Below, in pieces: positions 2,357 through 36,581 of a stretch of 37,617 nt of DNA. Numbering within the stretch: position 1 is the first letter of the stretch; each line of letters opens with the position of its first letter. This stretch comes from a virus. The position numbers were made by a program, and so were the translations under genes. The notes beneath the pieces were generated by a model. That model was given only the letters and a program-made list of their open reading frames with translations, searched no databases and was not told the DNA's origin. The stretch spans positions 1-37,617 of IMG/VR virus record IMGVR_UViG_3300044646_002660; one strand, given 5' to 3'.

Positions 2357-4242
2357 GCAGTAGGCGAGGTGACGACGAGCTGGTCAGCGGCGTTGTAGTA
2401 GCTCAGGCGCGGGACTCCCGAAGAGTTTAGGAAAATTGTTTTGCTATAATTGTTATAAACAAGCGAGGCCGAAGATAAAGAAGTGTTTGTAATAATATTA
2501 GTTCCGATTGTATTATTTCTGAAATAATTGCTAATTATGTTATTTGTAAAATAAGAATCGATTTTATTTCCAATAAAAAAACTTCCGATAGTATTGTATC
2601 GAAATTCACTTCCTATATTATTCCAATAAAAATTAGCTCCAATGTTATTATTTCTAAAAGCATCTCCTATTGTATTACTACCAAAATCTCCAACAATTTT
2701 ATTATTGGAAAAATTTGCGCCAACCGTAACTCTTGAAATAATTTCTATATCATTTGAATTGAAACCATTTCCTATAAGGCAACTATAAAAAATATTTCTT
2801 ATAATGTTGTCTGTAAATGTTCCTAATGTTGTTATACCAATAGATGCTGCCGTAATTCTATTTCCGCTAAATCCATTTCCTATATTATTAAATGCAAAAT
2901 CTCTTTTTATTAAATTTGAATTAAATCCAGTTGATAATTTATTTTTTCTAAGGGCAGGACCAAAAATATTGCCTGCACATTTACCTTCAAAAGTATTATC
3001 CGAAGCCTGTGACCCTACTGTATTGTGCCAAAAAGTATCAGCTATATTGTTTTCAAACATTGAATGGATAATATTTTTACCGCAATTTTGCCCAAAGATA
3101 TTATCAATTATATAATAGCCAAGAATATTTCTATCAAATACATCACCTGTTTTTAAACCAATTGTAGATTTAAAAATATTAGAACTTGAATTGCTTCCAA
3201 GAACTATATTTTTAACTCCTTGTGTAAATATATTACTATGGCTTCCAGCTCCTATTTTCACATAAGCACTAGTTTCTGAAAAAACGCCAACATCTTCTGC
3301 TGTGGTTGTAAATGTTGGTTTTTGTATTCTTGAAGAAGTTAATGGTGGCAGATTTATGAGGTATTGCCAATTATTATTGAATTCGCTTATTGGTTTATAA
3401 GCAATGAATCCCCAAGATTCATCTGTTGGAAAATATGTTAACCCTTCGTTATAATCTGAAACTGGTTGCCAATTAAAAAAATTACTTAAAGGAACATTTA
3501 TGTTATCCGAAATTGCAAAATACAATTTATTGTTTGACTTTACAACATCGAGTTCTTTATAATTTACTGAAGAACTCCATTCCGATATAGTAGACAAATC
3601 AGGGCGACAACAATTTACTGTGATATGCCTAAAATCATATGGCATATCAATATCCCATTTATTATCTATCCTTCTAAAGATTAAGCCTTTGATTCCTGTA
3701 ATGGATACAGAATTGTTTAGATACCCCCAATTATAGGATGTAGTTGCTTCAAAATCATAATAAATTGTGTCTGTTGGATACAGGTCGGAATATGCTATTG
3801 GCGAGAACTTATTAACCGCGATTGCAAGCACATTTAATGGTTCAAGGACTGGGCTTGTTTTTACGGTCGTGTCATTGATGCTTTGGTTCCACCATTTAAG
3901 CTGGAAATCCGTGATCTTGTAATACTGCCCAGGCACGAGCTGGCTGGCGTCTTTGAGCGCTTTCAGCTCGGCATAGGTTTTGGAAATGATCAGCGCGCCT
4001 TCTGGCACGCCGCCGGATGCTGTGGTCTTTTCGACAAAATTCGCATCGGCGGTGCCGTCGCGGAACCAGTATTCGGTAACGGCGCCGGAGGTTTCGACTC
4101 CGACTGTTAAGCCCTTGTAGCGCGTGGCGGCAGGGATGTCGGCGAGCGCGGCGGCGGTGCTGGCGTAGGGGCCGTATTTGGCATCGATGGGCTTGGCGGC
4201 TCCTACGACGATTCCGGCTGAGAGTTCGATTCCGGTTGGCAT
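2353..4242 (-). CDS. Beta-helix receptor-binding protein with AT-rich foreign core (629 aa)
   Basis: Residues 1-120 are GC-rich phage sequence with a fibre-type segment (YASTAAALADIPAATRYKGLTV ending in W.RDGT) and an ITDFQLKWW motif. Residues ~120-600 are written in strikingly AT-rich codons and end in about 250 residues of a short repeat of the form N.IG..F..N, the pattern of a parallel beta-helix or beta-solenoid. The last ~25 residues return to phage codon usage (VPRLSYYNAADQLVV). The mosaic shows a receptor- or glycan-binding core acquired from a low-GC source between resident ends. The start overlaps the stop of the 520-aa gene (TAATG). Similar repeats occur in glycan-binding tail proteins of gut phages; substrate unknown. 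Confidence 0.8.
   Translation of the reverse strand: MPTGIELSAGIVVGAAKPIDAKYGPYASTAAALADIPAATRYKGLTVGVETSGAVTEYWFRDGTADANFVEKTTASGGVPEGALIISKTYAELKALKDASQLVPGQYYKITDFQLKWWNQSINDTTVKTSPVLEPLNVLAIAVNKFSPIAYSDLYPTDTIYYDFEATTSYNWGYLNNSVSITGIKGLIFRRIDNKWDIDMPYDFRHITVNCCRPDLSTISEWSSSVNYKELDVVKSNNKLYFAISDNINVPLSNFFNWQPVSDYNEGLTYFPTDESWGFIAYKPISEFNNNWQYLINLPPLTSSRIQKPTFTTTAEDVGVFSETSAYVKIGAGSHSNIFTQGVKNIVLGSNSSSNIFKSTIGLKTGDVFDRNILGYYIIDNIFGQNCGKNIIHSMFENNIADTFWHNTVGSQASDNTFEGKCAGNIFGPALRKNKLSTGFNSNLIKRDFAFNNIGNGFSGNRITAASIGITTLGTFTDNIIRNIFYSCLIGNGFNSNDIEIISRVTVGANFSNNKIVGDFGSNTIGDAFRNNNIGANFYWNNIGSEFRYNTIGSFFIGNKIDSYFTNNIISNYFRNNTIGTNIITNTSLSSASLVYNNYSKTIFLNSSGVPRLSYYNAADQLVVTSPTA
2420..3880. other. 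AT-rich island inside the 629-aa fibre gene
   Basis: About 1.46 kb of A+T-dominated sequence in a genome that is otherwise GC-rich, with both boundaries inside a continuous reading frame. It encodes the beta-helix and the domain before it. No insertion-sequence ends, transposase or recombinase accompany it, so exchange by homologous recombination at conserved ends is the simplest explanation. Confidence 0.85.
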
Positions 4243-5804
4243 TAGGTGTTCCTGAGTTCGATGTTGGCGGCGGAGTTCGTGAGCGCTCCGGCGGAGGTGT
4301 GGATTTTGTAACCTTGCGTCCAGAGGGCGGTGGTGACGCTGAGGGTGGTGACGGGCTGGAAAACGACGGTGATCGCGCCGTTATCCAGCGCGGTGACGAA
4401 ATACCGGGTCTTGGTCGTGCTGGTGCTGGGGTAGGCGATGGCGAGGAATTGGGCGCTGGGGGCGTAGGGGATCGTGAGCGTGCCGGTGGAGTCGGCGATG
4501 ACTTTGGTGGCGGTGCCGTTTTCGATCGCGGCGACCATGGCGGCTGCGCTGATCGGGCTGGAGGAACGGAGGTGGTAAAATGGATGGACTCCGGTGATTG
4601 CGGGTGCGCTGGTGCTGTCGGTTGCTGTGCCTGCGGCGCGGGAGGCGGCGAGGTTGGTGCCAGAGACGGATTTGTTGTCGAAATAGGTGCCGGTGCCTGC
4701 GGCGTGCGCTGCGGTGACGGCCCAGTTGTTCGAGCCGGAGACGACGGCGGTGGTGAAGGCAAGCGTATTGCCTGGCTGGGTGGTGGAGGAAATGCCGGTT
4801 CCGGTGAAGGTGTAGCCTGTGGCGTCGCCGACGAGGGGGTTGGCATTTGTGGAGCCGTTGCCGTCAAGGATAGTGCCGCGTGTGAAGGTGGCGGTGAGAG
4901 TGCGGGCGATGCTGCTGCCGACCTCGAGCACGCCGCTGGCTCCGCTCACGCCGAGGGTGATGGATTTTGCGGAGCCGACCGAGGCGAGGATGGTCGGGAA
5001 AAGGATGTCGTCCAGGACTTGGACGAGGTTCTTGGACTTCCACGAAGAGGCTGGTGCGGCGGGAGCGCCACCGACTGAGACGCTGACGACGCCATCGGCG
5101 ACCGTGGTGTTGTAGGCCGTGGCGAGGGTGTTCGAGGTTGAGGTGATGCCGGAGTTTGCTGTGACGGAGATAGCCGCCTGCGGGGGAGCCACGGCAGCGA
5201 CGGCAGCGGCGAAGTCAGTGATCTGGCTGGCGGTGTGGGTGTGGGGTGAAGGCGGGAAGGTGGCGGGTTTGCCAGCAAGATTTGCCCAGGTGAAGTTGGC
5301 GGCAGCCCATGCGCGGATCGCGTCCCAGACGCGCAGCGGAGTCGTCCACTTTTCGTTACTCGTTCCGGCCGCAGCTTCGGCGAGGGTTGCCTTGAGGCTT
5401 GGCACCGAGGCAGGGATGCCTTCGTCGCCGAGTATGACGGAGTTTTGCAGCTCCACGGCGAGCGTGGCGGTGCGCGTCTCTTCTCCTGGGCGAGTGTATT
5501 TGACCTCGAGTAATGCGGAGGCGCTGGCAGTGTTGCCGGGGAAAAGCTCCTCGACTGGCACGGTGTAGAGATTGAGCGTGCCGTCGGTCTCGGCGAGGGC
5601 GAGGAATTGAGGATCGGAGAAGCTGCGCTTAAGCGCGGTCTTGAGCGTGGTCCCGGCAGGTGTCGGCACGATGGCCAAGCGCTCGACGAATACCACCTCC
5701 ACATCCACGACATCGCGGCGTTTGAAAAAAACGCGCGCCAGCGGCACGGAGGAGTTCGGTGCCTTGAGGAATCGGCGGGTGGCGAGATCGATGTAGAATT
5801 TCAT
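4242..5804 (-). CDS. Tail fibre protein with shared N-terminal module (520 aa)
   Basis: Residues 1-165 are the shared fibre-attachment module (MKFYIDLATRRFLKA, VFFKRRDVVDVEVVFV, NSVILGDEG). Residues ~170-205 carry the fibre motif GKPATFPPSPHTHTASQITDF, found once here, twice in the 304-aa protein and in related form three times in the 462-aa protein. The remaining ~310 residues are threonine-, serine- and alanine-rich beta-structure (TGTGISSTTQPGNTLAFTT, YHLRSSSPISA, a C-terminal YFVTALDNGAITVVF) unlike the other copies, probably an alternative receptor-binding end. The gene is 7 bases downstream of the cysteine-rich gene and overlaps the 629-aa gene. It has no equivalent in the shorter cassette. 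Confidence 0.8.
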   Translation of the reverse strand: MKFYIDLATRRFLKAPNSSVPLARVFFKRRDVVDVEVVFVERLAIVPTPAGTTLKTALKRSFSDPQFLALAETDGTLNLYTVPVEELFPGNTASASALLEVKYTRPGEETRTATLAVELQNSVILGDEGIPASVPSLKATLAEAAAGTSNEKWTTPLRVWDAIRAWAAANFTWANLAGKPATFPPSPHTHTASQITDFAAAVAAVAPPQAAISVTANSGITSTSNTLATAYNTTVADGVVSVSVGGAPAAPASSWKSKNLVQVLDDILFPTILASVGSAKSITLGVSGASGVLEVGSSIARTLTATFTRGTILDGNGSTNANPLVGDATGYTFTGTGISSTTQPGNTLAFTTAVVSGSNNWAVTAAHAAGTGTYFDNKSVSGTNLAASRAAGTATDSTSAPAITGVHPFYHLRSSSPISAAAMVAAIENGTATKVIADSTGTLTIPYAPSAQFLAIAYPSTSTTKTRYFVTALDNGAITVVFQPVTTLSVTTALWTQGYKIHTSAGALTNSAANIELRNT

Positions 5805-23034: not shown

Positions 23035-23201
23035 TGTGGGAGTCGTGTGGGAGTCTCCCGCAAGTGCAACAAAATCAAGAGCTAAACTTGCCCTGTGGTG
23101 TAATGGTAAGCAATATCCAGAAAAAACTTTCGTTGATTTGCAACTACTTACAACTTTATCCCACTTTAAAATCCTTGAGGCGTGTGGGAGGTTGTGGGAG
23201 T
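23035..23201. other. Candidate attP: paired arm-type repeats around a tRNA-like core
   Basis: The octamer TGTGGGAG occurs at 23035, 23046, 23183 and 23193: two tandem pairs, each with 10-11-bp spacing (one helical turn), on either side of a tRNA-like segment at 23089-23112. Direct repeats flanking a core next to a tyrosine integrase are the layout of lambda-type attP arms. The arms lie in the 233-base gap between the divergent primase and integrase genes. Integration has not been shown. Confidence 0.6.
23089..23112 (+). other. tRNA 5'-half-like segment, possible attP core
   Basis: TGCCCTGTGGTGTAATGGTA has the acceptor strand, T-G spacer and D-arm (GTG TAATGGTA) of a bacterial tRNA, most like tRNA-Gln. 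Downstream sequence (AATATCCAG, then A-rich) has no anticodon stem, T-arm or 3' acceptor strand, so it is only a half. Phages often integrate in tRNA genes, though most use the 3' half; a 5'-half core would be unusual. Confidence 0.45.
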
Positions 23202-23211
23202 TTCGGTGTGC

Positions 23212-24237
23212 ATGGCTTACATCACAAAAACGAGGAAGAGCGTTTATTGGGTTCTGAGGTATCGTTGCCTTGATACTGGCAAGTGGCGGGACCGCTCCAC
23301 GCGGTGTCGGCATGATGATGCCAAGCAGACTCGGGCGGCACAGCGGATGGCTGAGGAGGCGAGTGCTTTGGAGGCCAAGGTGGGGCCGGAGGCCTCGGGA
23401 GATTTCTCGGCGTGGGCGCTGGATTACATACGGCGGCACTACACGAGCGAGTCGAGCCGGAAGCGCTACGAGGCCGCGTGGATGCGGATTCTGGAGTGGG
23501 CGCGGGTGCGAGGCATACGGCATCCCGCCCATGTGCGCTACGAGCATGCCACCGATTTTTTGGAATGGCGCAAGGCTCAGGAGGCCAGCCACAATACCGC
23601 CCGCCTCGAGCTGAAGTTTCTCTCCTTCATCCTCCAAGAGGCCCTGCGTCGGGAGCTGATTCAGAAGAATCCGATTGCCCTGGCTAAAGTCCCACGCACT
23701 CCCGCAAAGGTGAAGCCGGAGTTCGATTCGGCGGATTTCAAGAAAGCGCGGGCGGCCTTCACCGCACGGAAGAGCGCGCCGTGGATGCTCACGGCCTTTG
23801 AGATTTGCGCGCATCTCGGCTGCCGCTTCCGCGAGGCCGAGCTGGCCCGCGAGGATGTGGACTTCGAGCAGCGCATCATTTGGATCACAGACTCGAAGCG
23901 CAAGCCGGGCGACCCGCGCAAGCGCTTCAGCGTCCCGTTGCCCGATTCGCTCGCCAAGCACTTGCAAGCCGTCTTTAAAAAGCGCGACCGCACCACGCCG
24001 GATCTGCGCTTTGGGGAGCATAACAGGCAGTTCAACTTGACTCTGAAGGAGGCCACCGGAGCGACATCCCACAGCCTCCGCGTCTCTTTCGTGACTCGTT
24101 GTCATCGGGCAGGCCTTAGCGAGAGCCAAGCGATGCGGCTGGTGAATCACTCCACCCGCCTTGTGCATGCGATTTATTCTCGCCTGTCCGTAGAGGATGC
24201 CCGGGCAGCGGCTGCGAAGGTCCTCCCGCCGATTTAG
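23212..24237 (+). CDS. int: Tyrosine recombinase (phage integrase, 341 aa)
   Basis: The start is the ATG at 23212 (MAYITKTRKS), with GGGAG 11 bases upstream; an upstream GTG at 23182 is less likely because it lies in an arm-type repeat. An arm-binding N-terminus (1-60) is followed by a core-binding SAM-like domain (~62-155). The catalytic domain has Arg205 (GCRFREAEL), Lys229, His287-x-x-Arg290 (HSLR), His313 and nucleophile Tyr322 (HAIYSRL), the complete family set. It catalyses site-specific integration and excision at attP immediately upstream. The only long early gene on the plus strand here, it overlaps the excisionase-like gene tail to tail. Confidence 0.93.
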   Translation: MAYITKTRKSVYWVLRYRCLDTGKWRDRSTRCRHDDAKQTRAAQRMAEEASALEAKVGPEASGDFSAWALDYIRRHYTSESSRKRYEAAWMRILEWARVRGIRHPAHVRYEHATDFLEWRKAQEASHNTARLELKFLSFILQEALRRELIQKNPIALAKVPRTPAKVKPEFDSADFKKARAAFTARKSAPWMLTAFEICAHLGCRFREAELAREDVDFEQRIIWITDSKRKPGDPRKRFSVPLPDSLAKHLQAVFKKRDRTTPDLRFGEHNRQFNLTLKEATGATSHSLRVSFVTRCHRAGLSESQAMRLVNHSTRLVHAIYSRLSVEDARAAAAKVLPPI

Positions 24238-25358: not shown

Positions 25359-25931
25359 TTATGCCTTTCGTTTTGCCCACGAGGTTTTTGCTGCTTCGCG
25401 GTAGATCTCCCGTGAGCTGGAGGCCTTGCGAAATTTGAAGACACCGATTTTGAGGAGGTCGGCCCAAGTGGTGACATAGTAGGAAATGAGCGAGCGGGTT
25501 ACGCCGAGTTCGCGGGCCACCTCGGCTTGGCTGTGGGTGCCGTTGAGTTCAGCGAGGCCGGTCGCCAGGGCGAGGGCGCGCACCAGGGCGCGGAGGTTTT
25601 TGGTCGGTTTGATGAGAAAGGAGACGATGAGGTTGAGCTGCTCGGCTTTGGCCCAGTCCACTTCGCGGGCCACGGCGACTTGGTGCCATTCCAGCACGCG
25701 GGTCGCCTCCTCGAGGCCGAGGTTCAGATTTTCGGCGAGGATCCACTCGGGCTTGTCCACATCGAAGGCATCGGGGTCGGGGAATGTCTCCAGATACTCC
25801 TCCTCCACCGTGGGCAGAGCGGCGACGGGCTCGAGGGCGGCAGATACCTCCTCGCGCTTGAGCGGCTCGAGGCCGTCGAGCCAGTTTTTGAGCAGGGCTT
25901 CCTGCTCGAGTTCTTGCGGCGTGGGCTTCAT
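25359..25931 (-). CDS. Helix-turn-helix early regulator (190 aa)
   Basis: The start is the ATG at 25931 (MKPTPQELEQEALLK) with a purine-rich GGAGGAGG just upstream. An in-frame extension to 26000 would only encode the intergenic repeat (TTEDTESTEEE) and is rejected. The C-terminal third carries an HTH (SQAEVARELGVTRSLISYYVTTW, residues ~137-160), and the acidic N-terminus (EYLETFPDPDAFDVDKPEW) precedes a hydrophobic helix pair. It is a likely DNA-binding regulator or ParB-like protein in the early operon. Target unknown. Confidence 0.75.
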   Translation of the reverse strand: MKPTPQELEQEALLKNWLDGLEPLKREEVSAALEPVAALPTVEEEYLETFPDPDAFDVDKPEWILAENLNLGLEEATRVLEWHQVAVAREVDWAKAEQLNLIVSFLIKPTKNLRALVRALALATGLAELNGTHSQAEVARELGVTRSLISYYVTTWADLLKIGVFKFRKASSSREIYREAAKTSWAKRKA

Positions 25932-25933
25932 TC

Positions 25934-25970
25934 CCTCCTCCTCCGTGCTCTCTGTGTCCTCTGTGGTTAA
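25934..25970 (-). repeat. TTAACCACAGAGG-type extragenic repeat serving as leader
   Basis: The 35-base gap between two early genes reads TTAACCACAGAGGACACAG and on to GGAGGAGGAGGG on the minus strand. The TAA is the stop of the 62-aa gene and the 3' end is the Shine-Dalgarno of the next. Strings of this form are widespread as extragenic repeats in many bacterial genomes from memory; a search would be needed to confirm. Confidence 0.6.
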
Positions 25971-26155
25971 TCCCTGAGCTGCTTGCGCAACTCGGCACAC
26001 GCCTCAGCCACTTCCTCCGGTGTGCACCAGCGGTCGCCGGCGGGGGGCTGCGGGGGCCATGTTTCGCGTTTCGGCGGGGTGGATGGCCTGCGGGCGAGGC
26101 GGTCCACGGCGGCGAGGTGACGGCGGGCGGCGGCGAGGTGGGCGGAAAGAGTCAT
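25967..26155 (-). CDS. Small early protein (62 aa)
   Basis: Starts MTLSAHLAAARRHLAAVDRLARR at 26155; longer in-frame versions would read through the preceding gene. It is an arginine-rich helix followed by a proline-rich middle and a helical end (CTPEEVAEACAELRKQLRD). No family is recognised. It is part of the run of tightly packed small genes of the early operon. Confidence 0.55.
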   Translation of the reverse strand: MTLSAHLAAARRHLAAVDRLARRPSTPPKRETWPPQPPAGDRWCTPEEVAEACAELRKQLRD

Positions 26156-26162
26156 AAAGTTT

Positions 26163-26360
26163 TTAGTTTTCAGTGGGTGGCTGTGTGGTGGCGGCGGCCC
26201 AGCGGAGTGCCACGGTGGCGCGCAGGGCGTGGGCGAAGCACTCGTGGCAGAGCGGGCCGAGATCGCGGTCTTGCAGATCGGCCAGTGTGTGACCGTCGCC
26301 ATCGCCACAGATGTTGCAGAGGGTGCCTTGCTGGCACTCGGGCAGGTCGATGAGGTTCAT
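26163..26360 (-). CDS. Small zinc-ribbon-like protein (65 aa)
   Basis: Starts MNLIDLPECQQG at 26360, where the ATG overlaps the previous stop (TAATG). Two cysteine pairs, CNICGDGDGH and PLCHECF, spaced about 20 residues apart, suggest a small zinc-binding domain of the kind found in phage host-takeover proteins. The C-terminus is alanine-rich. The partner is unknown. Confidence 0.65.
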   Translation of the reverse strand: MNLIDLPECQQGTLCNICGDGDGHTLADLQDRDLGPLCHECFAHALRATVALRWAAATTQPPTEN

Positions 26361-26509
26361 TAGTCTTGGTCCTCCCATTCCTGCCAGCGGCGGCGGCGTT
26401 CTTGGTGGTCTCGGATGTCGGAGTGCATGCTCTCGCGTCCGAGGTAGTAGCAGGCGATGCAGGAGCCCAGCGTGATGGCCGCAATGCACAGGGCGAGACC
26501 GGCGCTCAT
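26360..26509 (-). CDS. Single-helix membrane peptide (49 aa)
   Basis: Starts MSAGLALCIAAITLGSCIACYYLGRE at 26509; this start overlaps the previous gene by ATGA. Residues 4-23 are one hydrophobic helix, followed by a highly charged tail (DIRDHQERRRRWQEWEDQD). No signal peptidase site is evident. A small membrane-anchored early protein, possibly involved in exclusion; unknown. Confidence 0.6.
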   Translation of the reverse strand: MSAGLALCIAAITLGSCIACYYLGRESMHSDIRDHQERRRRWQEWEDQD

Positions 26510-26769
26510 TTGGAGGCCTCCTTTTTTGCTTGGAGGTTCACCGTGAGCTTGTTTCGGCCTACAGGACGCACCTCGGCCAACATTTGAACGATTAACCAAC
26601 TTCCTGACCAATCGTCGTCTCGGTCAGCCAGAGGGATGTCGCACATATTCCAGACCTCCTCAAAATCGCGTCGGATATGCGCCTCGGCAGCGGCCCTGGT
26701 CTCGAATGGCCCACGAACTTCCTTCATTTTTGCGTCACCCGAATCGGTTTCGATGATCCAATATCTCAT
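26506..26769 (-). CDS. Early protein of unknown function (87 aa)
   Basis: Starts MRYWIIETDSGDAKMKEVRGPFETRAAAEAHIRRDFEE at 26769, overlapping the previous stop (ATGA). This beta-strand plus helix start (a signal-like 'FETRAAAEAHI' helix) is typical of small phage proteins such as DUF-type accessory factors. It ends with a lysine-rich tail. No specific family is recognised. Confidence 0.6.
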   Translation of the reverse strand: MRYWIIETDSGDAKMKEVRGPFETRAAAEAHIRRDFEEVWNMCDIPLADRDDDWSGSWLIVQMLAEVRPVGRNKLTVNLQAKKEASK

Positions 26770-26885
26770 CGGGCGAGCCTCCAGGTTGCCCATGCGAGGC
26801 CGAGGAGCGGCAGCACAGTGGTGAGGTATTGGATGAAATAGCCGAGCGAGCGGCATACGGCTGCGGGGTCGTTGAGGTCGATCAT
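26766..26885 (-). CDS. Very small membrane peptide (39 aa)
   Basis: MIDLNDPAAVCRSLGYFIQYL, then a hydrophobic TVLPLLGLAWATW segment. The ATG at 26885 and the stop at 26766 overlap neighbouring genes by ATGA. The short length makes it uncertain; the perfect coupling at both ends and a single transmembrane helix support it. Confidence 0.55.
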   Translation of the reverse strand: MIDLNDPAAVCRSLGYFIQYLTTVLPLLGLAWATWRLAR

Positions 26886-27037
26886 AGGTTGAGAAGTGAG
26901 ATGTGGATGGCTGGAATGCCGTGCTGGAGGAAAAAGCGGGTCTTTGCGGAGCTGAAGCCAGCGCACCGCAGGAGGGTGCGGATCTGGCCGCGCACAGGGT
27001 CGAGGCCCTCGCAGAGGTAGAGGCGGGGGTGTTTCAT
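26882..27037 (-). CDS. Small basic protein (51 aa)
   Basis: Starts MKHPRLYLCEGLDPVRGQIRTLLRCAGFSS at 27037, overlapping the Bro-N stop (ATGA). It has two cysteines and basic residues, and ends ISLLNL. It belongs to the chain of coupled early genes. No function can be assigned. Confidence 0.55.
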   Translation of the reverse strand: MKHPRLYLCEGLDPVRGQIRTLLRCAGFSSAKTRFFLQHGIPAIHISLLNL

Positions 27038-27816
27038 TCGGGTTGAGCGAGTTGGGTGAGAGTGAAGACGCGGGAGCGGTTCTTGCCGTGGCGTTGAAAA
27101 AGGATGCCGTCGAAGGCCTTGCTGCACTGCCGGTCACAGAGCAGGCCGAAGCGGGAGGCGATGGAGGGGCTCAGGATCGTCTTGGTCTTGAGCCATGTGG
27201 AGAAGAGGCCCTCGGCCACGGCCACTTGCCGCATCTCCAGGCTGCTCCACTCCTTGTCCTGGTCGCGGCTCCAGAGTGCGGCCACGAGAGCGGAAAATTC
27301 CTTGTGCTCCCCGTCCAGCACCTCGAGCGCTTGGGTGGTCTCGGTGGCTTGGCCCAGCTTCCAGCCATTGCGGTAGTATTGGCCCACGAGCCCTGCCATG
27401 GCCGTGGCCTTCTCCACCGACATGCGGCCCTCGTAGAGATCGCAGATCGCCAGTTCCAGCACCTGCTGGATGCGGCCGATGCCGGTGAGCACCGCATACC
27501 CGCCCGTGCGCCGGATCGCTGGCAGCACCTCGCCAGTCACCCACTTACGGAAAGCCTTCGCCTCCGGCTTGCGGGATTTGAAGATTAAGGCATACAGGCC
27601 GGACTCGGAAATCGTCTGAATCTTTTGAGCCCCGCCAAGGGTGTCGGCAATAGCGACACCCTTTTCATCATCTTCGAGCCCTTGCACAGCATCGCGGTGG
27701 TTTGAAATATCCAAAGCACGGCAGACATCGGCGGCGACGAACCATGTTTGCCCCGCGCGATCCATGGCTCGAACAGGCGTGCTCTTGAAATCAAATGTCT
27801 GGATTTCGCCTTTCAT
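27034..27816 (-). CDS. Bro-N antirepressor (260 aa)
   Basis: Residues 5-105 form a BRO-N domain: VRAMDRAGQTWFVAADVCRAL, NHRDAV..L.DDEKGV, TISESGLYALIFKSRKPEAKAFRKWVTGEVLPAIR. Residues ~110-260 form a second, Ant-type domain (KATAMAGLVGQYYRNGW, a basic end VFTLTQL). Antirepressors of this kind bind phage repressors and promote the lytic cycle; here the targets may be the RHH regulators at 28.3-29.0 kb. It overlaps genes at both ends by ATGA. Confidence 0.85.
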   Translation of the reverse strand: MKGEIQTFDFKSTPVRAMDRAGQTWFVAADVCRALDISNHRDAVQGLEDDEKGVAIADTLGGAQKIQTISESGLYALIFKSRKPEAKAFRKWVTGEVLPAIRRTGGYAVLTGIGRIQQVLELAICDLYEGRMSVEKATAMAGLVGQYYRNGWKLGQATETTQALEVLDGEHKEFSALVAALWSRDQDKEWSSLEMRQVAVAEGLFSTWLKTKTILSPSIASRFGLLCDRQCSKAFDGILFQRHGKNRSRVFTLTQLAQPE

Positions 27817-28274
27817 GCCAGCCCCCTTTCCCGGATGCGGTCGGCAGACACCACGGCCCCGTTGCTGAGCTTGGCCGCTTCGCCCACGATCCGCACGATG
27901 CGCGCTTGCAGTGACGAGGCTTGACCTACTGGGCGGTAGGTGATGACATCGCCCACCCTATGCCCACCAGCGATCCTCTCATCACGGCCCTCGATAACCT
28001 TGCCAAGAGCAATAAAGACTCCGCCCAAGCCATCGCGGATTCTTTGAAGGACGTGGCCAGCGCCTTGCGCAGCCTGGGAAATGGCAACCAACACGCCCCA
28101 GGAGCCATTGAGTTTGTCGGCATGGCCCTCCGTGACGGGCTCAGCTCCATTTCCTCCGCGCTGCAAGAGCGGGAGTGAATGACCAAGGGTGTCGGCATTA
28201 CCGACGCCATAGTTATGAGACCTGTGTTCAGTATTACTGAACTCAGGGGATTGTTTGGAGGTTTTCTCGTTCAT
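27813..28274 (-). CDS. Early protein, N-terminus uncertain (up to 153 aa)
   Basis: The frame is open from ATG 28274 (leader TAACCCAAAAAAAACGAG, as at other genes here) to a TGA overlapping Bro-N. The last ~47 residues (VGDVITYRPVGQ, RIVRIVGEAAKLSNG, SADRIRERGL) look like a real small beta-domain. The glycine-rich middle is what the antisense of an alanine-rich gene would give, and a plausible plus-strand gene lies there. An alternative is a 47-aa gene starting at a GTG at 27956. The C-terminal part is well supported; the full length is not. Confidence 0.5.
   Translation of the reverse strand: MNEKTSKQSPEFSNTEHRSHNYGVGNADTLGHSLPLLQRGGNGAEPVTEGHADKLNGSWGVLVAISQAAQGAGHVLQRIRDGLGGVFIALGKVIEGRDERIAGGHRVGDVITYRPVGQASSLQARIVRIVGEAAKLSNGAVVSADRIRERGLA
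27960..28178 (+). CDS. Possible antisense helical protein (72 aa)
   Basis: A 72-residue frame starting MPTSDPLITALDNLAKSNKDSA with an amphipathic helix pattern, then AIADSLKDVASALRSL and FVGMALRDGLSSISSAL. Codon third positions are strongly C/G, like confident genes here. It is opposite the 153-aa minus frame and lies four bases from the alternative GTG at 27956. No obvious Shine-Dalgarno sequence. It may be a real plus-strand gene or an accident of high GC. Confidence 0.4.
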   Translation: MPTSDPLITALDNLAKSNKDSAQAIADSLKDVASALRSLGNGNQHAPGAIEFVGMALRDGLSSISSALQERE

Positions 28275-28294
28275 TGTTTCTCGTTTTTTTTGGG

Positions 28295-28477
28295 TTAGGC
28301 GGGGCTGCTGCTATCCGCCGTATCGTCGCGCAGCGAGGCTGTGTCGCGGCGAACGAGGTCACGGAGGTATTCAGAAAGGCTGCTGTAAGTTCCTTCGATT
28401 CTTTGGAGCGCTTGCTCGTGAAGTTCGGGTGGAATTCGAAATCCTATGAACGGATTGGTTTCGTTTTTGTCGCTCAT
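28295..28477 (-). CDS. Ribbon-helix-helix regulator A (60 aa)
   Basis: Starts MSDKNETNPFIGFRIPPELHEQALQRIEGTYSSLSEYLRDLVRRD at 28477. The strand (FIGFRI), helix and second helix (SLSEYLRDLV) match the Arc/MetJ RHH fold. The 32-bp perfect-arm palindrome at 28478-28509 ends at the start codon, so autoregulation is very likely. It is paralogous to the plus-strand RHH protein at 28679 (shared F.GFR.....L.EQ...R). The two are divergent across the immunity intergenic region, as P22 Arc/Mnt-type control would be. Confidence 0.8.
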   Translation of the reverse strand: MSDKNETNPFIGFRIPPELHEQALQRIEGTYSSLSEYLRDLVRRDTASLRDDTADSSSPA

Positions 28478-28509
28478 GTGAGCACACTTTATTTTCAAAG
28501 TGTGCTCAC
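28478..28509. promoter_or_regulatory. 32-bp palindromic operator at RHH gene A
   Basis: GTGAGCACACTTT / AAAGTGTGCTCAC: perfect 13-base arms, 6-base spacer (ATTTTC), ending at the start codon of RHH gene A. A weak minus promoter (TTGATT, 18 bases, GAAAAT) would overlap the palindrome. A half-symmetric GGTGAACACC lies at 28538-28547. The palindrome is seen directly; the protein bound is inferred. Confidence 0.7.
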
Positions 28510-28658
28510 TTTGCAATCAAAAATTTTCATTCTATGGGGTGAACACCTAAGAAAATTGTTTTTTTCACTTGACACCCGCATGGACAAACGATCTGCGGGC
28601 GAATTTATTTTTCAAAGCATTTGCTTTTGATAAATAAAATTTGCGATTTGAGTGCGCC

Positions 28659-28677
28659 TGTTAAATTATTTTTAACA
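28659..28677. promoter_or_regulatory. Inverted repeat abutting RHH gene B
   Basis: TGTTAAA / TTTAACA around a TTATT spacer, ending one base before the ATG of the plus-strand RHH gene. The surroundings (28550-28680) are AT-rich with a possible -10 (TAAATA). It is a second candidate operator in the 201-base divergent region, mirror-placed to the 32-bp palindrome. Confidence 0.5.
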
Positions 28678-28678
28678 T

Positions 28679-29011
28679 ATGAGCGCAGAAGAAAAATTTG
28701 TAGGCTTTCGGGCCAATCCAACCCTTGTTGAACAAATCAAAAAGCGTGCCAAGTCAGAGCACCGAAGCCTTGCAGCCCATATGAGGTGGCTTGTAGAGCA
28801 GGATTTGTGGCAAAACAATATGCCCACACTCATGGCCGCAGAGACCCCCGAGAGCGTTGACTTGCCACAGGACAAGACTCAGGGAAAATACCAGACTGCC
28901 GCAGCGACGAAGGCGGCAGAGCGTGCTGGTGTCAAGACTATCAGGCCATCGAAGAGTTTCGATGGTTCGTCCTCAACAGCTACGACGGGCAACTCCCACC
29001 AGGTTGGGTAG
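28679..29011 (+). CDS. Ribbon-helix-helix regulator B (110 aa)
   Basis: Residues 1-45 (EKFVGFRANPTLVEQIKKRAKSEHRSLAAHMRWLVEQDL) fit the RHH pattern (strand, helix A, helix B) and resemble RHH regulator A. Residues 46-110 are a flexible, basic and serine-rich tail (AAATKAAERAGVKTIRPSKSF). There is no Shine-Dalgarno sequence; the inverted repeat 28659-28677 abuts the ATG. It is the first gene of the plus-strand immunity operon and may be the lysogenic repressor, with A as the opposing switch protein. No HTH repressor of the CI type is visible anywhere in the window. Confidence 0.75.
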   Translation: MSAEEKFVGFRANPTLVEQIKKRAKSEHRSLAAHMRWLVEQDLWQNNMPTLMAAETPESVDLPQDKTQGKYQTAAATKAAERAGVKTIRPSKSFDGSSSTATTGNSHQVG

Positions 29012-29059
29012 CGGAAGTGCATGACTTAACGCAGCACATGGAATAAAAGCCCCTTTTTT

Positions 29060-29362
29060 ATGAACGAACAAAAACAACAATATCTCCTGCGCATCCGCTC
29101 CCAGAGCGCGTATCCGTGGATTCGTCGCCTTGCCAATTTAGTCGCGCTTGGGCTTTACACTTTAGCCTTCATGCTATCAGCGTTGTCTATTGTGGTAGGC
29201 GCGCTCACCGCAAAAGGAACCTTGTTTTTGCCGATCGTGCTTTCGACTTTGGTTGTTTCGATTTTTTTAATCGTAGCCGGGCGAGTTTATAAAGAAGCCT
29301 CGATCTTGCTGGCCGACATCGCGGATTCCGTCACGGATCTGAACTGCCGCTACGAGCAGTAA
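29060..29362 (+). CDS. Two-helix membrane protein of the immunity operon (100 aa)
   Basis: Two hydrophobic segments, residues 25-48 (ANLVALGLYTLAFMLSALSI) and 54-74 (LFLPIVLSTLVVSIFLIVAG), follow a basic N-terminus and precede an acidic helix (YKEASILLADIADSVTDL). No signal peptide. It is downstream of RHH gene B and upstream of the structured RNA. A superinfection-exclusion or other lysogenic-conversion role fits the position but is unproven. No Shine-Dalgarno is visible. Confidence 0.6.
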   Translation: MNEQKQQYLLRIRSQSAYPWIRRLANLVALGLYTLAFMLSALSIVVGALTAKGTLFLPIVLSTLVVSIFLIVAGRVYKEASILLADIADSVTDLNCRYEQ

Positions 29363-29365
29363 AAA

Positions 29366-29479
29366 CCACGGGAGGCCCTGCTTCTATGCGGTTCCAGAGC
29401 TGGAGACTTGTCTGACCAGAGCGCGACCCGCGCTTCCGCCGCATTCCCACTTTATTGCTCCCGTGGCGTGATTTTTTTT
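29366..29479 (+). ncRNA. Candidate ~100-nt multi-helix RNA with 3' U-tract
   Basis: A 9-bp closing stem (29366-29374 CCACGGGAG with 29458-29466 CTCCCGTGG) encloses a 6-bp stem (29386-29391 with 29439-29444), a bulged hairpin (CTGGAGA 400-406 with TCT 411-413 and CCAG 416-419), and AGCGCG-ACC-CGCGCT (29420-29434). An oligo-T run follows at 29472-29479. Pairings are perfect at each arm. No coding frame of quality lies here. It is on the plus strand between two plus-strand genes; a regulatory or antisense RNA or an elaborate terminator are the options. Confidence 0.55.
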
Positions 29480-29496
29480 AGATATGTCGCTTTGTC

Positions 29497-29852
29497 ATGA
29501 AACGAGACCTTGAGACGATCCGCAGCATTCTGCTTAAAGCAGAAGCCAGCAGCGAGCCTTCCGGTGCGAAACCCCAGAGGAGATATACAATGCGGTGCTG
29601 CTGTCTGATGCGGGGCTCATTGAGGGACGCTTTTCACCACCGACTCTCCCGAATACAGCCATGATTCTTCGGCTCACTTGGCAGGGACACGATTTTCTTG
29701 ATGCAGCCAGGGACGATACGATCTGGAGCAAAGCCAAGGAGAAGTTCTTGAAGCCCGGCATTTCATGGACATTTTCTATCGTCTTTGAATTTCTCAAGGC
29801 AGAGGCTCAGCGGCAGCTTGGTGCAGCTTTAGGAGTTCCTCCAGTTCGTTAG
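29497..29852 (+). pseudogene. DUF2513-like gene broken by a -1 frameshift
   Basis: Frame 1 starts MKRDLETIRSILLKAEASSEPSG, the typical DUF2513 beginning. Near 29563 the reading must shift by one base, after which another frame continues ETPEEIYNAVLLSDAGLIEG, then LRLTWQGHDFLDAARDDTIW, the typical DUF2513 end. One missing base in GTGCGAAACC would explain it. No slippery heptamer is present, so a mutation or a sequencing error is likelier than programmed frameshifting. DUF2513 proteins are frequent in prophages; function unknown. It converges on the 73-aa gene with 59 bases overlap. Confidence 0.75.
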
Positions 29853-30015
29853 CGGCGTTAAAATAGCACATGGCTCCGTGCTCAATGAATCGAGCCTCCA
29901 TGCCGGAGGCTTTCCCGGCATCAATGAATTTCCTTTGAGCGATCTGCTTCCAGTTTGAAATCAGCGCGAGCAATTCGCTGCTGGGGATCTCGGTGCGGGC
30001 GGGTGGATTGCTCAT
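29794..30015 (-). CDS. Small late protein after the endolysin (73 aa)
   Basis: Starts MSNPPARTEIPSSELLALISNWKQIAQRKFIDAGKAS at 30015, overlapping the endolysin stop (ATGA). Residues 28-70 form a charged helical region (ARFIEHGAMCYFNAANELEELLKL). It is the last gene of the late operon, converging with the immunity operon. No family is recognised. Confidence 0.6.
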   Translation of the reverse strand: MSNPPARTEIPSSELLALISNWKQIAQRKFIDAGKASGMEARFIEHGAMCYFNAANELEELLKLHQAAAEPLP

Positions 30016-30491
30016 GCCAGGATGTCGATGCGGTCGGCCACGCGCTGGCGGAGGCTGGCGAGGAGTTCGCGTTCGGTCATGTTGGCGCTCCACGGCGGGC
30101 GGAATTGGTAGTGCGGCTCGTCGACGAATTTCCAACGGCCGCCCCACTCGAAGCCGAGGCTTTCGCCTAGTGGGCCAAGTTCGCGGTAGAGTGCGTGATC
30201 TCCGTGGTAGGTTTTGCCGTCTTTGCTGAAGACGCCGAGATCGATTGCGAGGCCGAAATTGTGCATGCTGTGGCCTGCTGGAGCCTTGGTGACGATCTTG
30301 CCGGGGGCTGTGCGGCCTTTGGCGTAGAGGGCGGCCTGCTCGTCGTAGGATCGGAGGCCGCAGATGCATTTCACATCGAGGTTGCGCTGGGCGGCGAGGT
30401 TCTTGGCGGCGGCGACGAATGTGGAGGCGCGCTGGTGCAGGTCGGGGTGGAGTGTTGCCAGGTTGCGCTCGCTGCGGTCGTCGAGTTTCAT
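30012..30491 (-). CDS. Endolysin: M15 peptidase (159 aa)
   Basis: An L-alanyl-D-glutamate-type peptidase of the M15C family. Motif GLRSYDEQAALYAKGRT (residues 45-61), zinc site SMHNFGLAID (75-84; His77, Asp84) and DEPHYQF (124-130; His127). The protein has no cell-wall binding domain and no signal peptide, so it needs a holin. It cleaves peptide crosslinks of peptidoglycan at lysis. It overlaps the 26-aa membrane peptide gene and is preceded by holin and spanin-like genes. Confidence 0.92.
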   Translation of the reverse strand: MKLDDRSERNLATLHPDLHQRASTFVAAAKNLAAQRNLDVKCICGLRSYDEQAALYAKGRTAPGKIVTKAPAGHSMHNFGLAIDLGVFSKDGKTYHGDHALYRELGPLGESLGFEWGGRWKFVDEPHYQFRPPWSANMTERELLASLRQRVADRIDILA

Positions 30492-30568
30492 GGGCGAAGG
30501 AGGAAGGCGAGCATGGCGAATCCGAATGAGATTAGGATGAGCCCAAGGGCGATGTGGCCGGGTTTCAT
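30488..30568 (-). CDS. 26-aa membrane peptide of the lysis cassette
   Basis: MKPGHIALGLILISFGFAMLAFLLRP: nearly the entire peptide is one transmembrane helix. The ATG overlaps the holin stop (ATGA) and the stop overlaps the endolysin ATG (ATGA), so all three are translationally coupled. It could be a holin regulator (antiholin-like) or a second pore peptide. It is below the size normally annotated. Confidence 0.6.
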   Translation of the reverse strand: MKPGHIALGLILISFGFAMLAFLLRP

Positions 30569-30972
30569 TTGGCGTTTACTCCTCTGATTTTTTCGAGGGT
30601 TCGGAGGGTTCCTAATCCGAGCATTCCCAAGAGGGTTGTCATCAACATTTCGGTCGGGAGGGCTATGACTGGAGCGGGTTGTTTTGTGAGGAGCACATAG
30701 GTCCACGAGAAGAGCGGCTGGCCTACGCAGACCCATGCGAAGGAGGCGGCACATACCCAGCCTACGGCGGGTCGCCACCCGGAGACGAAGAGGGAGGCGT
30801 GGGCGGCTTCGGCGGTGTTGGTCTGGCTTTGCTGGGTGGCTTCCTGTGCGGCGATTTCCAGGACGCGAAGCTGCCAGGCTTCTTGCGCTTTGCGCTTCGC
30901 TTCGGTGTCCGGCACGACCTTGTCGATGATCTCGAGGCCGGTGCGGACCATGGCTGGGATGTCCCAAGTCAT
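30565..30972 (-). CDS. Holin, 3-TM GTA-holin family-like (135 aa)
   Basis: The pattern IIDKVVPDTEAKRKAQE, NTAEAAHASLFVSGWRPAVGWVCA resembles the three-transmembrane holin family of gene-transfer agents (GTA_holin_3TM). Three hydrophobic stretches lie at residues 67-83, 86-105 and 107-124. It would form the membrane lesion that lets the endolysin reach the wall. Coupled to a spanin-like gene before it and a 26-aa peptide after it. Confidence 0.85.
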   Translation of the reverse strand: MTWDIPAMVRTGLEIIDKVVPDTEAKRKAQEAWQLRVLEIAAQEATQQSQTNTAEAAHASLFVSGWRPAVGWVCAASFAWVCVGQPLFSWTYVLLTKQPAPVIALPTEMLMTTLLGMLGLGTLRTLEKIRGVNAK

Positions 30973-34959: not shown

Positions 34960-35196
34960 TCAAAAAGTTCCGGCATCGATGACCGGCAGGAGGAGTGCGT
35001 AGCTGCTCGCGGCTTCGCTCCAGCGCCAAGGCAGGCCGGTATCGAGTGCGACATACATGCGCTTGGCGCGGCCAGTGCTCGGGAAGGCTTCTCGGTTCGG
35101 ATACTCGACGATGGCGTTCGTCTCTTCGGGCAAGACGAGCGTGAAATTTGAGAGATCGAGCTGCTGGGAGATGTTGGATTCGGTGATCGTTGTCAT
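34960..35196 (-). CDS. Small tail-fibre accessory protein, second allele (78 aa)
   Basis: Starts MTTITESNISQQLDLSNF at 35196 (overlapping the stop of the 462-aa gene). It is the counterpart of the 75-aa protein at 361-588: EYPNREAFPSTGRAKRMYVALDTGLPWRW against the same motif there. Role as for that allele: an accessory of the adhesin complex. Confidence 0.75.
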   Translation of the reverse strand: MTTITESNISQQLDLSNFTLVLPEETNAIVEYPNREAFPSTGRAKRMYVALDTGLPWRWSEAASSYALLLPVIDAGTF

Positions 35197-36581
35197 GCGT
35201 AGGACAAGGTCTCCCGGTTGAGCCATGAGCCTGTGGCTGTGGCGTTGCTGAGCACGCGCCCGGCGGCGTTGAGTGTCGAGCGGCGGATGGTCCAGCTTGT
35301 GGCTGTCTCGGGCAGGGCTGGCGCGGCGGGGCGGTTGGCGTTGAGCAGGCGGCCGCTGTAGGTGGTGAGGCCGTTTGAGCTTTGGTCGAATGCGTAGATG
35401 TAGAGGGTCGGGTCGATCGGGCGTTGAACGCTGCGAAGGCCGAGGGCGGTGAAGACGATCTGCTGTCCGGCCGCTGGATAGTCGTCGAAAATGATCGTGC
35501 CGCTGGCTAGGTTGACCGTGTAATCAGTGGCTGGGTTTTGCGTGACGCCGTTGAGGGAGACGAGCACGGCAGAGGGATCGGAGCTTGCGAGGCCGCCGAC
35601 TGAGTAGGTGTCGGTGAGGCCGTCGGCTGTGTGCGTGGTCGTTGTAATGCTAAGGCCGGGGGCAGACGCCACGATGAAATCCGAGAGGCCGGTGATGGCT
35701 GTCGCTGGATGCGTGTGGGTGCTTGGCGGAAAGGTTGCTGGCTTGCCAGTGAGGCTTGACCAATCGACAGGCGGCGAGACAGCGACGACGGCATTGGCAA
35801 AGTCGGTGATTTGCGAAGCTGTGTGGGTGTGGACGGTGTCGGCTTTGCCGTTGATCTGAGTCTGCAAGCTGCCGATTGATGCGGCGGCTTCGGCGATGGA
35901 GTCGAGCGAGGCTGGGTCCAGATTCGCGGCGAGGAAATCTATGCGCTGCCCGAGGGCGGTGTCTGCGGATGCAAGGGAGGCGAGGTCGGCATCGAGGCCG
36001 GTGATCTCGCTCTTAAGGTGCGTGTGGGCAGTCGCCGGGAAGGTGGCGGGCTTGTTCAGCACGCTTGCCCAGGTCGGCGGCGGCGCAAGCACCGCGATGG
36101 CTTGCGCCGTGCGCAGCGGCGTCATCCACTTTTCATTCGAGGTGCCTGCGGTAGCTTCGGCTTGGGTCGCCTTTCCGTCTGGAACTACGGAAGGCGTGCC
36201 TTCGTTGCCCAAGATAACGCTGTTCTGAATTTCTACCTGGAGCGTGGCCGTGCGGGTCGCCTCGCCTGTGCGGGTGTAGCGCACCTCAAGAAGTGCGTCG
36301 GCGCTGGCAGTGCTGCCGGGAAATAGGTCTTCGACGGCGGTGGTGTAGAGGTCGAGCGTGCCGCTGTCAGCAACGGCGAGGAAATTGGTGTCTGAAAATT
36401 TGCTTTTGAGCGCAACGCGGCTGGTGGTGCCCGGTGGCGTGGCGACGGCGGCTCCGCGCTGCACGAAGATGACCTCCACCGGCATGAGGTCGCGGCGTTT
36501 CAAGACCAGCGTCGGCAGCGCGGCGGAGGATGCCGCGCTCTTGACGAAGCGCCGGGTCGAGATGTCGATGAAAAGTTTCAT
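35193..36581 (-). CDS. Receptor-binding tail fibre, fused allele (462 aa)
   Basis: Residues 1-150 are the shared MKLFIDISTRRFVKS module. Three histidine motifs follow (HTHLKSEITGL, HTHTASQITDF, HTHPATAITGL), then the C-terminal recognition domain (YAFDQSSNGLTTYSGRLLNANRP, IRRSTLNAAGR, GSWLNRETL). It corresponds to the 176-aa and 304-aa genes joined into one. 53 bases at 35356-35408 are identical to 748-800, showing recent exchange or common origin. A hairpin abuts its start codon. Confidence 0.85.
   Translation of the reverse strand: MKLFIDISTRRFVKSAASSAALPTLVLKRRDLMPVEVIFVQRGAAVATPPGTTSRVALKSKFSDTNFLAVADSGTLDLYTTAVEDLFPGSTASADALLEVRYTRTGEATRTATLQVEIQNSVILGNEGTPSVVPDGKATQAEATAGTSNEKWMTPLRTAQAIAVLAPPPTWASVLNKPATFPATAHTHLKSEITGLDADLASLASADTALGQRIDFLAANLDPASLDSIAEAAASIGSLQTQINGKADTVHTHTASQITDFANAVVAVSPPVDWSSLTGKPATFPPSTHTHPATAITGLSDFIVASAPGLSITTTTHTADGLTDTYSVGGLASSDPSAVLVSLNGVTQNPATDYTVNLASGTIIFDDYPAAGQQIVFTALGLRSVQRPIDPTLYIYAFDQSSNGLTTYSGRLLNANRPAAPALPETATSWTIRRSTLNAAGRVLSNATATGSWLNRETLSYA

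Follow-up and report, generated by a model that had tools for sequence, protein, structure and literature searches.

How a temperate phage that shows no CI-type repressor might hold lysogeny is the question raised by the DNA analyzed here, a stretch of 37,617 bases (IMG/VR record IMGVR_UViG_3300044646_002660; hereafter the window). The window is a temperate phage contig with integrase, replication, packaging, tail and lysis genes. Primase, helicase, terminase, portal and tail genes form a leftward block, the lysis genes (a holin and an M15 peptidase) lie on the other side, and two small divergent ribbon-helix-helix (RHH) genes sit between the early and lysis blocks. The leftward (L) RHH gene is the first of an operon that runs through replication and packaging, while the rightward (R) gene points away from it. 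A first-pass annotation had suggested that this pair may work as a switch of the Cro/CI kind in which the proteins have the Arc/MetJ fold. The features on which the analysis turns are as follows:

23182-24237, plus strand: tyrosine integrase
25359-26000, minus strand: HTH protein of 213 residues inside the lytic operon, the only HTH found in the window, and a weak one
27034-27816, minus strand: Bro-N/Ant-type antirepressor (Pfam E 2e-22)
27960-28178, plus strand: ORF72, 72 residues, between RHH1 and Bro-N, a probable real gene
28295-28477, minus strand: RHH1, 60 residues, first gene of the leftward (lytic) operon, ATG at 28477, strand PFIGFRI
28305-28821: half-kilobase exchange cassette, holding both RHH domains and the intergenic putative operators
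28478-28509: operator-like palindrome at the RHH1 start, perfect, 13+6+13
28660-28676: operator-like palindrome at the RHH2 start, GTTAAATTATTTTTAAC
28679-29011, plus strand: RHH2, 110 residues, first gene of the rightward operon, ATG at 28679
29060-29362, plus strand: DUF4282-like membrane protein 3' of RHH2 (E 8e-5, below cut-off)
29497-29852, plus strand: DUF2513 gene, part of the rightward operon, split between two frames here

The search for another repressor

The first-pass annotation saw no CI-type repressor, and profile searches agree with it. Eight records were searched, one of them the window, whose contig ends are not closed. HTH_3 gave no match over the cut-off in any of them, the best score in the window being 17 bits (cut-off 23) at 25476-25535, and Peptidase_S24 gave no match at all. 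No regulator turned up among the remaining window proteins that were scanned against Pfam. The HTH protein at 25359-26000 is conserved across the family and is not CI-like; its presence in the lytic operon was counted against the switch model. Scans for sigma-70 promoters and terminators scored scarcely or not above shuffled sequences. In the rightward operon, DUF2513 is intact (118 residues) in the related record L014, and its split in the window is either a true frameshift or an assembly error.

Two RHH genes and the phages that carry them

The divergent pair described at first pass is indeed present, RHH1 and RHH2 starting 201 bp apart on opposite strands, and both proteins carry the F.GFR start that had been pointed out (FIGFR in RHH1, FVGFR in RHH2). 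Changes relative to the related phage L007 at first, second and third codon positions number 6, 5 and 23 in RHH1 (23 of 34 at third positions) and 6, 1 and 18 in the RHH2 core (18 of 25), an excess at third positions which indicates that both are real genes. In relatives, an in-frame stop stands immediately 5' of the position of the RHH1 ATG. RHH2 consists of an RHH domain (about 28679-28807) followed by an exchangeable C-terminal tail. A match to RHH1 in L038 was discarded, as it lies antisense within a tape-measure ORF.

Both proteins are predicted to belong to the RHH (MetJ/Arc) superfamily, with a strand-helix-helix domain of about 45 residues. RHH2 gives a weak match to Pfam Arc, with an E of 0.0022 that falls short of the cut-off. 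RHH1 by itself reached no RHH family in the profile search, but its positional counterparts in relatives do: the L-side protein of type G (see below) passes the Pfam cut-offs of RHH_5 and RHH_1. The top PDB fold matches of the AlphaFold models are AmrZ, Arc and CopG for RHH2, and the PrpA and ParD antitoxins and Arc for RHH1, with the weak E-values that are expected for 45-residue domains. DSSP assigned only two helices to the models, the strand being missing because it forms in the dimer, and sequence searches of solved structures returned nothing useful. RHH proteins contact DNA through this N-terminal strand, as established for Arc, CopG and MetJ. The two proteins had also been called paralogues; a domain tree joins the type-A pair (99/100), but BLASTP of RHH1 against RHH2 finds nothing, and direct paralogy is weakly supported.

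Relatives were gathered by a helicase search in which the RHH genes were not used, and which yielded 22 viral loci and three loci in bacterial genomes. Of the records found by helicase, 17 extend into the region, and each of them has a divergent RHH pair with the early operon on one side and the lysis genes on the other, the pair of L009 being identified by eye only. RHH-seeded searches bring further records, in which the partner gene alone counts as independent evidence. The pair is a trait of a phage family infecting Verrucomicrobiota. Searches of named phages for relatives of RHH2, a type-D L protein and the helicase gave no RHH match; the nearest helicase among them is that of Akkermansia phage Moulinsart (24%), in which the RHH profile found nothing. 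Six stretches with distant helicases (26-39%) from same-order genomes also showed no RHH pair by profile, and the module thus seems confined to the phage family of the window.

The pairs fall into seven sequence types, A to G:

Type A: the window and L002-L007
Type B: L014
Type C: L012 and L019
Type D: L013, L020-23 and L025-27
Type E: L017, L018 and L032
Type F: L009
Type G: L039, an integrated prophage carried by a Chthoniobacter flavus MAG

The type-G prophage has host genes on both sides, and a 21-bp 5' end of tRNA-Gln is repeated at both its ends. Apart from the RHH pair, the frames near its switch show just two sets of regulators. One is a homologue of the HTH protein of the lytic operon, and the other a HigBA-like toxin-antitoxin pair at L039:10033-10602, which adjoins the immunity region. 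The L009 record (VERI01000017.1) sits in a MAG labelled Burkholderiaceae and is probably a misbinned contig, since the other hosts are Verrucomicrobiota.

Palindromes, half-sites and the exchange cassette

Palindromes had been placed at both start codons. The one at RHH1 stands: it abuts the ATG, none of 100 shuffles gave one as good, and its sequence is unique within the window. It contains two GTGWGCWCAC cores (28478-28487 and 28500-28509), 22 bp apart, and overlaps the likely -10. As it runs up to the ATG and leaves no space for a ribosome-binding site, a leaderless mRNA is likely. The palindrome at RHH2 fares less well, lying 2 bp off the ATG and, taken alone, at chance level (score 7, null mean 7), although it is kept in every type-A relative aligned. 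An extra imperfect intergenic palindrome at 28604-28638, TTTATTTATCAAA...TTTGAAAAATAAA (minus strand), is not retained in type-A relatives.

Most types appear to carry half-sites of their own, and the palindromes are type-specific. In type A, GTGWGCWCAC stands where RHH1 begins and GTTAAA-n5-TTTAAC where RHH2 does. Both promoters of types B to E bear TTTCnnAC or TTCnnAC, and in types C to E two of these half-sites face each other on the R side at a distance of about 11 bp. Type G has CGCCGT three times, covering both promoters. The unlike palindromes on the two type-A promoters leave shared operators for both proteins unsupported in that type, which is a gap in the CI/Cro analogy. The beta-strands of partner proteins are in turn alike within types: FIGFR/FVGFR in A, KRTISM/RRTISF in D, KKSISL/KKSISM in E and TLTISI/TLSLSL in G. 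When partners were re-paired, 4 of the 5040 combinations equalled this within-type match, for strand segments picked by eye and with motif patterns and segments chosen after the sequences had been viewed.

Comparison of the window with the type-B phage L014 shows where one type gives way to another. The two are 97.5% identical over 27032-28304 (Bro-N, ORF72 and the RHH1 tail), share no alignable sequence over 28305-28821, and return to 88.6% identity at 28822 and onward (the RHH2 tail and beyond); the borders of the cassette are the points at which similarity to L014 stops and resumes. When 26000-30600 was compared with the type-A phage L007, whose backbone is more distant, only 28326-28804 aligned, at 74%. 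Taken together, the break with L014 and the alignment with L007 indicate that the unit swapped consists of both RHH domains and the DNA between them. The C-terminal tails remain outside the cassette, and are shared or swapped independently. Such an exchange between otherwise similar phages has the pattern of an immunity (heteroimmunity) cassette, and nothing else in the data speaks as strongly for a single functional unit made up of the two proteins and their predicted operators.

A proposed switch and its alternatives

We consider that the region is probably (at about 0.68) the primary immunity region and lysis-lysogeny switch of a family of temperate Verrucomicrobiota phages, with two RHH proteins in place of HTH CI and Cro. 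From direction, operon position and cassette exchange, RHH2 is proposed to act as the repressor in lysogeny and RHH1 as its antagonist in lytic growth; DNA binding, this assignment, mutual repression, immunity and induction are what we infer from the arrangement. In a lysogen, RHH2 would act like CI, binding the palindromes that cover the leftward promoter where RHH1 begins and silencing the leftward operon, replication and packaging included. During lytic growth, RHH1 would act like Cro and bind operators over both its own promoter and that of RHH2, shutting RHH2 off. Specificity would reside in the beta-strands and operators, so that the whole half-kilobase cassette would be swapped to change immunity type. 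The Cro/CI-like switch of the first-pass annotation is favored by the pair being present in every record that reaches the region, its place at the operon head, the cassette swap and the negative searches for an HTH or S24 repressor in eight records, whereas the unlike type-A promoters speak against it.

The Bro-N gene does follow RHH1 on the minus strand, as had been noted, but ORF72, which intervenes, is probably a plus-strand gene. All five of its differences from L014 fall at its third codon positions, and a 153-residue minus-strand ORF at 27813-28274 was rejected as a gene, its codon positions relative to L014 making it look like a shadow of ORF72; no PHROG match was found for ORF72. With a probable rightward gene between RHH1 and Bro-N, the latter may have its own promoter. 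Bro-N occurs in two of the eight records scanned (the window and L014), as well as at the end of L011, and nearly identical copies adjoin different RHH types in the window and L014. Bro-N thus appears to be an accessory insertion rather than a defining or core part of the switch, and may act as an antirepressor upon induction.

To our knowledge, the main bacterial phage in which RHH proteins have been described is P22, and there they serve as guardians of secondary immunity. In P22, mnt and arc-ant are divergent, and a separate c2 repressor is encoded elsewhere in the genome. In the immI region of Salmonella phage P22, which has been classed as a late-operon moron, the RHH repressors mnt and arc control the antirepressor gene ant (PMC2629481). 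This Mnt/Arc/Ant region is the nearest known layout to that of the window, which shares its two divergent RHH proteins, arranged as mnt and arc-ant, and has Bro-N in the place of ant. The pair could accordingly control Bro-N only, as a secondary immunity region, with lysogeny held by an unrecognised primary repressor. We judge this quite unlikely: unlike immI, the pair stands at the head of the early, lytic operon and is not a moron in late genes; the antirepressor after the arc-like gene is not constant, Bro-N being dispensable and missing from six of the eight records and from the type-A relatives, all of which retain the pair, and a probable opposite-strand ORF separates the two genes in the window. 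Unlike P22 with its c2, moreover, no separate HTH repressor appeared in the window, whose ends are not closed, or among the window proteins tested and the eight records searched with HTH_3 and S24.

The unlike type-A palindromes, each at the start of its own gene, would also suit an autoregulated circuit for early-gene timing, in which each RHH protein represses only its own promoter and lysogeny depends on the HTH protein at 25359-26000, itself conserved across the family, or on another factor. This is unlikely, given that the HTH protein lies within the lytic operon, which must be off in a lysogen, that types B to E carry the same half-sites on both promoters, and that the two RHH domains are swapped together. 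Very improbable, finally, is a role as antitoxin or as partition or copy-control genes that leaves lysogeny untouched. RHH domains are common among such genes and weak PHROG matches point to partition proteins, but neither a toxin nor ParA adjoins the pair in the relatives read, the pair invariably leads the lytic operon, and an integrase is present.

In its logic, the proposed two-protein switch is nearest to lambda CI/Cro and to F55 of SSV1. As in lambda, the genes are divergent, with predicted operators between them, stand at the head of the lytic operon and are swapped as an immunity cassette; unlike in lambda, the window pair has the predicted RHH fold, with no HTH and no S24 auto-cleavage domain. 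As to operators bound by both proteins, common half-sites lie on both promoters in types B to E and G, but not in A. F55, the RHH lysogeny repressor of an archaeal virus, covers the early promoters and its own (PMC5569661). The likeness lies in an RHH protein proposed to hold lysogeny; F55, however, is a single archaeal repressor, for which that review describes no divergent RHH partner. We found no paper in the open literature describing a phage switch of two RHH proteins, which is no proof of absence, and none on a Verrucomicrobiota phage switch in the literature searched. If the reading is true, a matched RHH pair serving as main switch in many specificity types would mean that a different fold can carry the logic of CI and Cro. 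Such phages would in addition supply natural pairs of beta-strands and operators for deciphering the RHH recognition code, and an entry point to lysogeny in Verrucomicrobiota.

The domain tree (54 columns, long branches) bears on how the types are related. It was rejected that RHH1 is, strictly by position, the orthologue of the L proteins in types B to E (AU p 0.007), and a grouping of RHH2 with the L proteins of other types, as expected from an inversion, was not (AU p 0.067), which makes inversion a lead only. It is doubtful that the RHH pair is the sole primary switch of the whole family, with at least seven immunity types, and that in addition the type-A cassette has been inverted, the domain that serves the lysogeny side in other types now being the lytic-side one with the C-terminal tails left in place.

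Two further observations concern the contig and its relatives. Three tail genes (1496-2026, 4242-5804 and 35193-36581, minus strand) share a similar N-terminal domain, and all match one stretch of L039. These repeats near both contig ends may be why assembly stopped there. No repeat of at least 30 bases occurs inside either end stretch, each scanned by itself; the ends are not closed, and the tail region may be short of a piece. In addition, two unlike tyrosine integrases share one site among related phages (23182-24237 in the window, L007:3325-4437 and L019:7514-8623); tblastn between the two gave no match, and their presence at one site indicates that the integration module has been swapped too.
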